A DNA stretch of 64,000 bases from Gammaproteobacteria bacterium (lineage in GTDB: Bacteria; Pseudomonadota; Gammaproteobacteria; SZUA-140), in the NCBI GenBank assembly GCA_016218365.1, contig JACREF010000005.1, forward strand, positions 64,130 to 128,129. The letters are read 5' to 3'. The translations under genes and the position numbers were made by a program. The first letter of the stretch is position 1. The number at the start of each line of letters is the position of its first letter. A model generated the notes under the pieces. That model ran no database searches. It saw nothing but the letters and a program-made list of their open reading frames with translations, and had not been told where the DNA came from. This document shows, piece by piece, positions 53,723-58,932 of this stretch.

Positions 53723-54624
53723 CTATTGCGGCGATGCCCGCCATATCGGCCGGCCTTGCCAGTCATCGGGGAAGCCCATGGCCAAGACATTGGCGACAGG
53801 ATGCTTGTGCAGCAGATCCAGCAGCCGATTTTTCCAATGATGGTCGGGGCTGATGATATTCATAAAGTATTCCAGCATCACCAGCGTGTTATACAACAGC
53901 CTGGGCTCTTGATGGTTCATGCTGCGATAGAGCTGCTCTGGACGGCGCGGTATCTTTATTTGGAAGCTGAGCCGGCGACTCCACAGGCGGCCGTGATGGG
54001 CACAGATGTTCCGCACAATAGTCAGGTGGTGCAAAAATGAAGTCAGCACGGTTTCATCCACGCCGTAGCAACGGGCGATGCCCTGCCGATCCCGGCCATG
54101 CTTTAGCTCGGCGACCCATCTGGACAGCTGCCCTAGCGATATCACCTCTGCCACCACCCAGATCGGCGGCAGGGCGGGGTCAGTGTACGTGTTGTGATAG
54201 TGTGTCACGAACACTTCTTTACTACGGTCCAGCTCATCTTTCAGTTTGTCCAGGCAGCGTTGATACGCCCCCGGGTCTTTGAAGATCGGCTGCTCAAGAT
54301 AGGCATGAGGGCCATACGTGTGGGCGAGATAATGGGCCCATTGAGCACGGATCGACACTTCTAAGCGTTCGATGGCGTCCATGATAAGCAATCGTAATTC
54401 ACGATCAAAGATATACAGGTTCAGCACATCTTCAAATGTGACGCCTGCCCGAAAGGCATGGGAGGCGTGATCGGCTTCAAATGAAAGCCAGTAGGCCCCA
54501 AGGCGGTATAGCTGATATGGTTGAGGTAGTGCCGGGCCTTATCCCTGTCCGGGATTGCCATGCCCCGGCTGACAAGCAGGTCAATCTGCTGATCGATGGT
54601 CGTGGCGGGTTTGGAAAACTTCAT
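53723..54624 (-). pseudogene. Abi_2 family (AbiD/AbiF) abortive-infection gene, frameshifted
   Basis: The frame from ATG 54624 reads MKFSKPATTIDQQIDLLVSRG and [13 protein letters not shown], then shifts near 54507. The continuing Abi_2 sequence ([48 protein letters not shown]) is in the next frame to 53723. One missing T (TAT-TAC read as TATAC) explains it, and the repaired product would be about 300 residues, normal for the family. The HEPN RNase motif RxxxxH is present in [12 protein letters not shown]. Upstream are a promoter and an intrinsic terminator. As it stands it is inactive unless frameshifting occurs. Confidence 0.85.
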
Positions 54625-54637
54625 TTCCCTGGCCCCG

Positions 54638-54692
54638 AAAAAAAGAAACCCCCCATGGTGCGCTTCCGAGGAGAGGCGTGGGGGGTGTTGTT
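54638..54692 (-). ncRNA. Short leader RNA ending in an intrinsic terminator before the Abi_2 gene
   Basis: From a predicted start near 54692 the transcript contains CCCCCCA (complement of 54679-54685) pairing with TGGGGGG (complement of 54649-54655), 23 bases apart, then a U-rich tail from the A-run at 54638-54648. The stem is only 14 bases before the Abi_2 ATG. The layout of a strong terminator between a short RNA and a HEPN toxin gene is what is seen in RNA-antitoxin systems. Alternatively it is a simple attenuator. Confidence 0.6.
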
Positions 54693-54698
54693 GCAAAT

Positions 54699-54727
54699 AG
54701 TATCGGGCATCCTTTCCCCAAACTCAA
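54699..54727 (-). promoter_or_regulatory. Promoter for the Abi_2 leader RNA
   Basis: On the minus strand TTGAGT (54727-54722), a 17-bp spacer and GATACT (54704-54699) form a good sigma-70 pair directly before the leader RNA. Confidence 0.55.
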
Positions 54728-54815: not shown

Positions 54816-55001
54816 TTATAGATCCAGCCTGTGCGCGGCGGGGTGCCCGATCAGCGGGTGACGCTGCAATACCGAGGTGGCATCGACGATCGCTTCACCC
54901 GCCGTCATGGCGAGATCCGGTGCGTCCTGTTCGAGAAATTGGAATATCCGTTCGAGGTCGGACAGTACGCGCCCGGTGAAATGCACGGTGGGCATGAGCA
55001 T
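54816..55001 (-). pseudogene. ParE/RelE-type toxin, C-terminus lost
   Basis: Starts MLMPTVHFTGRVLSDLERIFQFLEQDAPDLA, a ParE N-terminus, and reaches GHPAAHRLDL before TAA; the last third of the family (the LVISRG..GYVALYR strands) is missing. Homology stops near 54820, where unrelated AT-rich sequence begins, indicating a deletion or recombination junction. Its ATG shares one base with the TGA of the repaired antitoxin frame. Confidence 0.75.
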
Positions 55002-55326
55002 CACCGCGTGGTGCGTTTGGCTGTGCGCTTCCTGGCCTTGGTGTCGGTGCCGGTGACGGGTTTGGGGCGCTTCGCGGACGTGCCGGCGGTGCGCGCGAGG
55101 ATGTAGCCTGCACGTCTTCCATCGCATAGAGTGCGCCGCCGGCATCCACCTCGGTGGCAGAGGCGATGGCGTCACTGATAAAAGACTGCCGCATTTCAGC
55201 TAAACGGGCCTGGGTTTCCAGCGCCTCGACCATGAAGGCGTGCGGAGTCCTGCCGGACGCCTGAGCGACGGATGCAATGCGCGCCTTCAATTCTTCAGGC
55301 AGTTTCAGCGTGGTGGTGGATGCCAT
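55001..55326 (-). pseudogene. ParD/CopG-type (ribbon-helix-helix) antitoxin, frameshifted
   Basis: The N-terminus MASTTTLKLPEELKARIASVAQASGRTPHAFMVEAL is a ribbon-helix-helix DNA-binding domain. After YAMEDVQ (near 55110) the natural continuation GYILARTAGTSAKRPKPVTGTDTK...RTTR lies in another frame and ends at TGA 55003-55001, overlapping the toxin start. A one-base loss in GTGCA-GGCTAC explains it. In the present frame the protein runs on as an unrelated Pro/Arg-rich tail to 54895. Confidence 0.78.
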
Positions 55327-55377: not shown

Positions 55378-55680
55378 TCAATTGGCCTTGAGCATTTCAA
55401 TTGAGTCTGACCCTTTGGACTCTCTGGCAGTAATCGAATAAATAAATCTGTCCCCGTTTCTGGTCCGAAACTGACAGGTATCCAGATGTCGCCACACTCG
55501 CTCTTCGGCATGGTCCCGGCAGGACAACCCATGCCCACACTGCGGGCAGCTCCACACCGTCCCATCCTCATGCTCCACCCAGATGTCTACCCGCTGACCC
55601 GCCACATCCAGGTTAACCCGCTCCACAGTCCAGGGCTTATCCAGCCCCAATACCTGCCGGTACAGATCGGTGTCTCGCAT
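55378..55680 (-). pseudogene. ISL3-family transposase, N-terminal fragment
   Basis: MRDTDLYRQVLGLDKPWTVERVNLDVAGQRVDIWVEHEDG, the zinc motif CPQCGHGLSC and EERVWRHLDTCQF are the start of ISL3 transposases. Similarity ends at about 55463 where a copy of the 28-bp AAATCTGTCCCC repeat begins; the catalytic domain is absent. The rest of the ORF is repeat-derived. Confidence 0.82.
55435..55462 (+). repeat. 28-bp direct repeat, copy 1
   Basis: CGAATAAATAAATCTGTCCC... extending to 55462; identical to 55745-55772. It interrupts the ISL3 remnant on its downstream side. Confidence 0.85.
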
Positions 55681-55744: not shown

Positions 55745-55772
55745 CGAATAAATAAATCTGTCCCCGTTTCTG
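55745..55772 (+). repeat. 28-bp direct repeat, copy 2
   Basis: Identical to 55435-55462 and in the same orientation, 310 bp away. The GGGGACAGATTTATT core is common beside IS200-like/RAYT elements in Gammaproteobacteria. The two copies bracket the ISL3 fragment. Confidence 0.85.
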
Positions 55773-56052: not shown

Positions 56053-58530
56053 CTAAATATTTTTCACTTTTCTAAAATGATCCTGAAAGCTGCGTAGTAT
56101 TTTATCCTTTGTATCTAATGGATAATCTGTTAAACCACTTAATAGAACCTTCTCACCTCCTTCGAGGTTTCCTTCATATCCCATCAGATAGGCCTTTTGT
56201 TTTGTGAACGTTCTTTCAGAAATTGCATGCGATTTATGAAGCTTCTCTAATTCTGTCATAGCCTCTTTCATGCATAAAATGTCACCGCCTTTAACGGCTA
56301 ACTCGAATTTCATAAGATAAGGATAATGAATATCATGGTATGTGCTTATTGCATCATTGATAACATTTATGGCACCCCTATAGTCACTGCAGCATCTCGC
56401 CAAGTAGAGCGCTTTCGATGTCATTGCCATTTGACGGCCCACATCAGACCCACTACTTTCGAGCTCTTCATATAACATTCGCAACGTGTCCTTATGCTGA
56501 AAATAATCATTGCTATAAATCAGACAATTAAAATAAGCATGTACATGGTGAATATTACCTCTATTTTCCGAATAGTTTTGCCTCGCATAAATTAAGGCGC
56601 TGTCGTACTCTTCAATCTGTATAAGCACCTGCACAAGCTCTCTTTTTGCACGCGCGCCGACATATTGTTTATTTAGGATAGGCTCCAGCCTGCTAATAGC
56701 ATCTCTATGCCTGCCTTTAAGTCTATAATAATATCCTAGTAAAAAATTGTGCTCGTCACCCTGAATATTTTGCACTTCCCTTAAAAGCCTATCATTTTTG
56801 AGCCTCGCCAAAGAGAGACAAAGGTAATATCTTACATCAGAAACAAAATCTGCGTCCAAGTTGCTTGCTCTATCGAGCAAAATATCAGCTAATTCGATTA
56901 TGCGCTCATAGCCCTTGCGCTTTTGATAAAGATCCTTCATGCATCGAAGCATGTGAGAGGGGATAATTTTTGAATAATTTATATTAACACCCTCCTCTAG
57001 CGCCTCTTTAACTGAAAATAGATAATCAGAAGAGTCACGATCCAACCATTTATCTTCCTCTATAAAGGTTTTTACATGTTTCTTTATCCTAATCTTATAC
57101 TCTTCTTTTATCTCGAACTGATTTCTTTTAATAAAATCTCTAACCACATCATTTAATCGAATATATATCGCTTCAGATCCAATAAATTCACATATATTTT
57201 CAGCCATCAGCATTTCTAGAACAGGCGCATACTTAGCCTCTTCTACAATATCAAATATAAAATCTATGCTAATAAACTCAAACTGGGCCAAGAGTCTTAT
57301 GAATTGAAGGTATCCTTCATTTTCATCATAATTTCTTAAAAGCACAGAGGCCCTATCTGTGTTATATGCGGTGAGCTGATATACATCTTTTTTCGCCTTA
57401 TCAAGGCCATGTCTTTCGATAAGTTCAATACAAAATATTATTTGATCAGGAAAGCCATAAAACTGTTCAGAAAACATATCAAAATCATGTGCATCCATAA
57501 TAATATTATGAATCTCTAAGAGCTTGCTAAACAACCTTCTCCTCTCTGAGACTGAAAGCTCTGGCAAGTTGATAAACAAATAGCTATCCTTGTTTTTTCT
57601 ATCGCTGTAGCTAACTTTGTACTTCGAGGCACAGGCAATGACAGCCTGATTACTAAGGTGATGGTCGTTAATAATACGGTCAAACCAGCCCGCCACCTCT
57701 CTCTTATAGTTGACGATACAACCGTCATCAAGAACCAGAATAATATCTTTGCTATCTTGCGCCGCCTTAACTAAATTTGCTGCAATATAAATTTTATCAT
57801 TTAGAGACTTATCTATAAGGCTAACAATGTCATCAGTTGCGTCCGCATAACCAAGATCATTTAGCTTTACAATAAAATCCTCGACACTATCATTGCGACC
57901 CAAATAAATTGACGGGTACTCATAACTACTTTTAGTGATATTTGATTTTAATAGTGCGTTCTTAACAAATGTCCGGCGACCAATGGCTGGCAATCCTGAC
58001 ACGATCACGCATTTTGGCTTTGATGCATAGAAATCATCAATTCTTTCCTCAAATTCTTCAAGTTTATCATTTCTCCCAACAAAAAGATTTTGTCGCCTTT
58101 TAACCTCTGGATGATTATCCCAACTGATCTCACGAAGCTTTCCCCGAATCCTTCTTGCAGCAATAGTCGGTCTTGATATTAGCCGGATATTATAATCATC
58201 TTTTAGCCAGCTTTTTATTCTTGAATCATCATGAGTTATGCTGCTATCAATGAGGATCGGGTATATCTTTCGCAGATCACTACTATTCAGCTTGCCATAT
58301 GCCTCATCAAGCTCTTTGCTTACATGTGGCGAGTCAAGAGAATGGTTAGATACAAAAAATACAAATAATGCTGACTTATCAAGACCGAGCAATATTTCGG
58401 AAATCGTTCTCTCACCCTCTTCAAAAGAATACTCATCGTAAATAACATTTTCTTTCCCTAAGCAGTTAGCGACGATCCTGACATAGCGATCTTTATCCTT
58501 ACTTGAATGCGATAAAAAAGCTCTAATCAT
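56053..58530 (-). CDS. TIR-NTPase-TPR (NLR-like) protein, candidate antiphage effector
   Basis: An 825-residue cytoplasmic protein from an AT-rich gene unlike the backbone. Residues 1-130 are a TIR domain (IRAFLSHSSKDKDRYVRIVANCLG) with the catalytic-type Glu73 in SLDSPHVSKELDEAYG, suggesting NADase activity. Residues 145-480 are a STAND/NB-ARC-like NTPase: FVGRNDKLEEFEE, P-loop GLPAIGRRT at 179-187 with Arg where Lys is usual, Walker B ILVLDDG (264-270), ELSVSERRRLF and a GFPD motif (359-362). Residues about 520-825 are TPR-like helical repeats. AAGGGATGG precedes the ATG. It stands alone between IS debris and tRNA-Asn. The architecture matches bacterial NLR-like immune proteins; the Arg substitution is unusual. 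Confidence 0.85.
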   Translation of the reverse strand: MIRAFLSHSSKDKDRYVRIVANCLGKENVIYDEYSFEEGERTISEILLGLDKSALFVFFVSNHSLDSPHVSKELDEAYGKLNSSDLRKIYPILIDSSITHDDSRIKSWLKDDYNIRLISRPTIAARRIRGKLREISWDNHPEVKRRQNLFVGRNDKLEEFEERIDDFYASKPKCVIVSGLPAIGRRTFVKNALLKSNITKSSYEYPSIYLGRNDSVEDFIVKLNDLGYADATDDIVSLIDKSLNDKIYIAANLVKAAQDSKDIILVLDDGCIVNYKREVAGWFDRIINDHHLSNQAVIACASKYKVSYSDRKNKDSYLFINLPELSVSERRRLFSKLLEIHNIIMDAHDFDMFSEQFYGFPDQIIFCIELIERHGLDKAKKDVYQLTAYNTDRASVLLRNYDENEGYLQFIRLLAQFEFISIDFIFDIVEEAKYAPVLEMLMAENICEFIGSEAIYIRLNDVVRDFIKRNQFEIKEEYKIRIKKHVKTFIEEDKWLDRDSSDYLFSVKEALEEGVNINYSKIIPSHMLRCMKDLYQKRKGYERIIELADILLDRASNLDADFVSDVRYYLCLSLARLKNDRLLREVQNIQGDEHNFLLGYYYRLKGRHRDAISRLEPILNKQYVGARAKRELVQVLIQIEEYDSALIYARQNYSENRGNIHHVHAYFNCLIYSNDYFQHKDTLRMLYEELESSGSDVGRQMAMTSKALYLARCCSDYRGAINVINDAISTYHDIHYPYLMKFELAVKGGDILCMKEAMTELEKLHKSHAISERTFTKQKAYLMGYEGNLEGGEKVLLSGLTDYPLDTKDKILRSFQDHFRKVKNI

Positions 58531-58856: not shown

Positions 58857-58932
58857 TGGCTCCCCGAGCAAGACTCGAACTTGCGACCAACGGATTAACA
58901 GTCCGCTGCTCTACCGACTGAGCTATCGGGGA
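58857..58932 (-). tRNA. tRNA-Asn (anticodon GUU)
   Basis: 76 bases on the minus strand from TCCCCGA to encoded CCA. Acceptor stem TCCCCGA/TCGGGGA, D arm AGCTCAGTCGGTAGAGC, anticodon loop ACTGTTAATC giving GUU, T arm GTTCGAGTC. It marks the end of the accessory island and is a typical integration point. Confidence 0.97.

Follow-up and report, generated by a model that had tools for sequence, protein, structure and literature searches.

The leader and the abiF gene described here very probably make up an AbiF module of the type III toxin-antitoxin (abortive infection) kind, in which the toxin gene has been disabled. This assignment is based on four observations, namely the family membership of the RNA and the protein, the conserved layout of promoter, hairpin and terminator, the covariation within the hairpin, and the break in the toxin reading frame. 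The window (the whole stretch of 64,000 nucleotides that was analyzed) carries the leader and the AbiF gene on the minus strand, and every feature named in the original prediction was present in the sequence. The features were as follows.

54722..54727, minus strand: -35 element TTGAGT of the leader promoter, read from the sequence
54699..54704, minus strand: -10 element GATACT, after a 17-nt spacer from TTGAGT, in the register of the TAtaaT box of relatives
54637..54692, minus strand: abiF ncRNA, predicted transcript of 56 nt, from the first A of AACAACA to the end of the U-tract
54686..54692, minus strand: conserved 5' tail AACAACA, beyond the 37-position Rfam model
54649..54685, minus strand: abiF hairpin with a 6-bp outer stem, a 3-bp inner stem and the 6-nt 3' bulge CACCAT
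54637..54648, minus strand: U-tract TTTCTTTTTTTC, read from the sequence, which together with the hairpin makes an intrinsic terminator
54508..54624, minus strand: first coding segment of abiF (Abi_2/HEPN), ATG at 54624-54622, located by tblastn of the AbiF relatives L003, L004, L033 and L056
53723..54508, minus strand: second coding segment of abiF, read in a different frame and ending at the stop codon, with the Abi_2 match
53996..54013, minus strand: HEPN motif RNICAH (RNxxxH), aligned to RNSCCH of 8vz6

The link between AbiF and an RNA antitoxin and the kinship with Cas13, both invoked in the original prediction, are published (PMC12373285; PMC12165695; review PMC12737573). The AbiF RNA antitoxin system is already known, and the window locus adds a member to it. 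This member is a divergent, toxin-broken addition to a family thought to be ancestral to Cas13.

The AbiF gene and its frame break

The AbiF type of the HEPN gene was confirmed by profile and structure searches. PF07751 (Abi_2) matched the window ORF at 53723-54427 with E 3.5e-44. In the genome-wide search, AbiF was matched with E 3.8e-54 and 184.1 bits over profile positions 7-183 of 184. The nearest solved structure was PDB 8vz6, which shows AbiF in its published complex with RNA (E 7.5e-41, residues 2-230), and the RNxxxH motif was found. The PADLOC AbiD model also matched AbiF (E 5.8e-56), and an NCBIfam search with the AbiF piece returned no name.

Tblastn with four intact relatives gave two collinear pieces in different frames, with the junction at about 54508. 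This corresponded to a single frame break at about codon 39 in a gene that is intact in the relatives. A full-length ORF was not found, and the window AbiF is a broken member of the AbiF/AbiD family, not a working one. The downstream frame contained no ATG, GTG or TTG before 54427, and therefore any product of that frame would be without about 65 N-terminal residues. Programmed frameshifting was also weighed as an explanation for abiF and dismissed, because the relatives are unbroken and there is no slippery run at the junction.

The break that had been predicted was thus located by the two tblastn frames. The loss of the toxin, predicted along with it, fits a single frame break, although the break could instead be a sequencing or assembly error in an intact module, an unlikely alternative but one with appreciable weight. 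There is one break only, the genome is a 33-contig assembly, and the remaining coding sequence is well preserved, including RNICAH and the C-terminus MGFPDDWQ, all of which would suit such an error. However, the junction at about 54508 does not lie in a homopolymer. No split gene was found among the neighbouring ORF pairs tested elsewhere in the window, each of which matched its own family, so that split genes are uncommon in the window, and the adjacent RelB/ParE-type pair looks degraded too. We favor a toxin gene that is truly broken.

The AbiF gene was located within a stretch of lower GC content at 52.5-58.8 kb (0.35-0.58, compared with 0.60-0.67 around it), which adjoins a tRNA-Asn gene at 58857-58932. 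Within its order, one other of 20 genomes had a detectable relative, and this was a short fragment only. The AbiF region has the look of a defence island that was acquired and is now in partial decay. A TIR protein of 825 aa with low GC is encoded beside the tRNA-Asn gene at 56053-58530 (minus strand), and its match to PADLOC TIR-NLR runs along the full length (860 bits). Directly upstream of the abiF promoter (54816-55326, minus strand) are reading frames for a RelB-like antitoxin and a ParE-like toxin, which look broken or truncated. The direct repeat GAATAAATAAATCTGTCCCCGTTTCTG was found at 55436-55462 and 55746-55772, where it flanks a fragment of an ISL3-type transposase.

The leader and its relatives

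The promoter TTGAGT-N17-GATACT was present at 54727-54699 on the minus strand, exactly where relatives carry theirs, and it matched the consensus at 8 of 12 positions. The 5' end of the RNA (54692) was placed from the promoter position. The length predicted in this way was about 50-56 nt, in agreement with the short RNA of ~55 nt that had been proposed. The C6A/TG6 terminator with its U-tract corresponded to a stem-loop at 54685-54649 followed by the U-tract at 54648-54637. Its placement 5' of the gene was correct, but the spacing was 12 nt from the end of the U-tract to the AbiF ATG (54624-54622) instead of 14 nt. The hairpin has the layout CCCCCC-A-CGC-loop-GCG-CACCAT-GGGGGG with an outer stem made entirely of C-G pairs, and the window leader forms all 9 pairs of the two-helix structure. 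A scan with generic promoter and terminator consensus sequences did not return the leader, and its folding energy was no better than that of shuffles (z 0.28). These two measures were set aside, and comparison with relatives was used instead.

AbiF relatives were collected from genomes and plasmids, and their leaders were then read. According to the original prediction, the lack of a conserved leader structure upstream of close relatives would have refuted it. A total of 33 relatives, drawn from several phyla, had the same hairpin at the same place upstream of AbiF, with covariation. The order in these relatives was promoter, 5' tail, two-helix hairpin, T-rich tract and AbiF start codon. Their promoter has TTG ~42 nt and TAtaaT about 13-19 nt 5' of the stem. 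Among 27 non-redundant relatives, TTG was the commonest triplet at the -35 register, with T in 23 of 27 at 42 nt 5' of the stem. The 5' tail AACAAnA occupies positions -7 to -1 before the stem (A at -6 in 26/27 and at -1 in 27/27), and nearly all relatives have a T-rich tract at the position of the U-tract. Across phyla, conservation extended to the 5' tail and to letters of the loop (CGCCTCTC) and of the bulge (CACC).

Covariation was tested with 27 relatives. Pairing was kept in 98.8% of the pair cells, and changes on both sides were found at 8 of the 9 base pairs. The observed covariation score was reached by none of 500 shuffles, and pairing fell to about 46% when the partner was slid by one base. 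A separate count, in which whole 3' arms were shuffled, gave the same outcome. Two variants were also observed. Tandem abiF hairpins were located upstream of one AbiF gene or stub in three cases (L014, L072 and G283:C21:42246-42442). In the Halomonas group (L016, L020, L021, L023), whose hairpin is a distinct sub-form, the innermost pair of the outer stem is a conserved C-C mismatch and the bulge is 7 nt long.

The Rfam model RF03085 matched the leader at 54685-54648 (minus strand) with 34.0 bits, compared with a gathering score of 37, which is a curation threshold and not a biological feature. In the 2.26-Mb genome, RF03085 had no match at E<=10 other than the leader (E 2.1e-4). A second abiF RNA or AbiF copy elsewhere in the genome was not found by the RF03085 and Abi_2 searches. 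We also trained a covariance model, R1, on the relatives' leaders only, with the window leader left out. R1 gave the window leader 62.3 bits (E 1e-12 genome-wide), whereas its next-best match in the genome had 15.3 bits (E 6.8). The comparison with relatives, through covariation and R1, was the only test showing that the leader is not a chance hairpin. The matches of RF03085 and of the independent R1 indicated that the leader at 54692-54637 (minus strand) is, as judged from its sequence, an abiF RNA of the antitoxin RNA family of AbiF, as had been proposed.

The 369 genomes of the class were surveyed with RF03085 at E<=0.01, and Abi_2 neighbours were joined by hand from coordinates. There were 32 matches, of which 22 lay directly upstream of Abi_2 on the same strand. 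Among the 17 matches below 37 bits, 14 were still directly upstream of Abi_2, and for this reason the 34 bits of the window leader are credible. The Rfam cut-off is conservative for abiF RNAs of this branch. A hairpin was also seen by eye before several Abi_2 genes for which no RF03085 match was listed (L051, L054-L057, L060, L066). The cut-off and the model ends of RF03085 thus miss real members and the conserved 5' tail. No hairpin was seen by eye at the Abi_2 genes L049, L061 and L064. At L049, AbiF starts directly after an upstream reading frame and looks like part of a restriction-modification operon.

The remaining 10 of the 32 class abiF RNAs had no Abi_2 gene after them (L072, L075, L076, L080, L083, L084, L088, L094, L097 and L098). 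At L072, L094 and L098 an N-terminal AbiF stub alone remains. By eye, L075, L080 and L083 adjoin apparent type I restriction genes, and L088 precedes an AbiEi/AbiEii-like pair.

Proposed working of the locus and comparison with known systems

We infer transcription, read-through, binding and loss of activity at this locus, with the mechanism of binding taken by analogy from published studies of related systems. The single promoter at 54727-54699 would give a transcript that usually stops at the abiF hairpin and U-tract. The stopped transcript would be the abiF RNA of ~50 nt, and rare read-through would yield an mRNA for AbiF. When the system is intact, the abiF RNA would bind the dimer of the AbiF HEPN RNase and block its active site, and AbiF would be set free only when the balance is upset, for example by a phage. 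At the window locus the RNA is probably made and a working toxin would be absent, because the AbiF frame is broken at about codon 39. The promoter and terminator signals around the RNA are conserved in relatives as sequence signals, and the window RNA retains both stems, the loop start and the 3' bulge CACCAT.

The closest parallel in regulation is in C. difficile, where abiF RNA and abiF are transcribed from one promoter and most transcripts end before abiF (PMC12373285). The C. difficile RNA, RCd22, neutralises AbiF in cis and in trans through direct binding, and the same Arg and His of the HEPN motif are required for the toxicity of its AbiF (PMC12373285). The window locus shares with AbiF_Cd-RCd22 the unit of promoter, abiF RNA, premature terminator and abiF, together with the HEPN RNxxxH toxin. 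However, RCd22 measures ~100-130 nt and contains two abiF motifs, its terminator being separate (PMC12373285), whereas the window RNA has one motif in ~50 nt that is itself the terminator hairpin, and the window toxin frame is broken. The toxin of the Prevotellaceae PbAbiF-AbiFr complex (8VZ6) is homologous, and its RN...H motif is conserved. In that complex, the RNase is blocked by nucleotides from a single-stranded bulge of its RNA partner (review PMC12737573). PbAbiF is intact, whereas the window protein is without its N-terminal ~39 codons in frame.

The window RNA and RF03085 share the outer 6-bp and inner 3-bp stems, the CGCCTCTC loop start and the CACC-type 3' bulge, and both lie directly upstream of an Abi_2 gene. 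The differences are the score below the cut-off, the outer stem of C-G pairs only, and the 5' tail AACAAnA, which is common to the relatives and the window and is not covered by the Rfam model. In type III ToxIN, too, the RNA antitoxin is encoded ahead of its RNase toxin, and a terminator separates the two. However, ToxN does not belong to the HEPN proteins, and ToxI folds as a repeated pseudoknot (PMC8860590, PMC5772629). Phage mimicry of ToxI by RNA (PMC3475682) sets a precedent for the phage abiF RNAs without a toxin described below. The window protein is a single-HEPN Abi_2 by Pfam, whereas Cas13 (CRISPR type VI) has two HEPN domains in one protein and goes with a CRISPR array, and the kinship of AbiF and Cas13 is ancestral only (PMC12165695).

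Three other explanations of the leader were weighed. The RNA could be kept as an antitoxin acting on its own, shielding the cell from the AbiF of incoming plasmids or phages. Every element, from the promoter and 5' tail to the hairpin, its bulge and the U-tract, is intact despite the broken toxin, and 10 of the 32 class RNAs are toxin-less, three of them with AbiF remnants, which is consistent with this explanation. However, after a single recent break the RNA would still be intact even if no selection acted on it, and we consider such a role rather unlikely. It is improbable that the leader is a mere transcription attenuator, limiting AbiF in cis with no trans-acting antitoxin RNA. The hairpin and U-tract do make a good intrinsic terminator just 5' of the ribosome site, and cis repression through termination was demonstrated for RCd22 (PMC12373285). 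However, a terminator needs a stem and U-tract alone, whereas relatives of different phyla share the loop and bulge letters as well as the 5' tail, all of which toxin-less phages also retain; moreover, RCd22 acts on AbiF in trans. The notion of a chance GC-rich terminator resembling the hairpin, which the shuffle-like folding energy and the RF03085 score under the cut-off might suggest, was refuted by the comparative data (the genome-wide R1 match and the covariation that no shuffle reached) and has almost no probability left. We retain the toxin-antitoxin module with a disabled toxin gene.

abiF RNAs without a toxin in viruses and phages

The wider occurrence of abiF RNAs without a toxin deserves further study and matters more than the window locus. 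A strict hairpin pattern found 91 contigs in IMG/VR (L101-L191). The 86 contigs with at least 300 nt downstream were taken as informative and were searched with a profile made from 39 AbiF proteins. No AbiF was found within 2.6 kb downstream in 83 of the 86, and AbiF was present in three, two of them full and one partial at a contig end. PF07751 was absent from all 20 whole viral records tested. The 5' tail lay outside the hairpin pattern by which the contigs were picked, and AAYA was nevertheless found in 44 of 68, compared with 4-8 of 68 in control windows. PHROGs matches identified phage genes in many of the hairpin-bearing viral contigs.

Nine named phages carried an abiF RNA (30-58 bits), and their records contained no Abi_2 at all. 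In the T7-like phages PZL-Ah8 (L195), T7-Ah (L201), CRP-143 (L197) and Pasto (L198), the RNA lies in the gap between the head-tail connector and major capsid genes, and the hosts differ (Aeromonas for the first two, Roseobacter for CRP-143 and Rhizobium for Pasto). The RNA is located inside a tRNA array in S-CREM1 (L192) and S-SZBM1 (L200), near tRNA genes in Acj61 (L196) and Thibault (L199), and inside or near a phage tRNA array in the viral contig L169, in each case without AbiF. The available part of the S-CREM1 report describes its abiF RNA and proposes no anti-AbiF role (PMC9964418).

These results suggested that the toxin-less RNAs are an RNA-only counter-defence against AbiF. By analogy, we infer that phage abiF RNAs may disarm AbiF. 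Our tentative proposal, which falls somewhat short of an even chance, is that abiF RNAs outlive the toxin as RNA-only anti-AbiF agents, with phages disarming host AbiF and with bacteria that no longer have the toxin, such as the one carrying the window locus, perhaps being protected from incoming AbiF modules. With the same reserve, the carriers would include T7-like, T4-like, cyano- and mycobacteriophages, in some of which the RNA follows a phage promoter or sits within tRNA arrays. If phage RNAs neutralise AbiF, they would be a compact counter-defence of about 50 nt, which would explain why phages keep them. A description of RNA-only counter-defence against AbiF was not found in the open-access literature that was searched. 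A DNA region of the lactococcal phage sk1 is said to protect against AbiF (Rince 2000, as cited in PMC12737573). The idea that this region is an abiF RNA was dropped, because the sk1 genome gave no RF03085 match at E<=10, a search that a divergent RNA would escape.

In the Aeromonas phages PZL-Ah8 and T7-Ah, a sequence like a T7/T3-type promoter was seen by eye 5' of the abiF RNA, and the two phages differ from each other by a compensatory change in the stem. In three of the viral contigs (L102, L119 and L128), about six codons that resemble the AbiF N-terminus (LKFAKP) come after the RNA, with unrelated DNA beyond them, as if the toxin had been cut away after the RNA.
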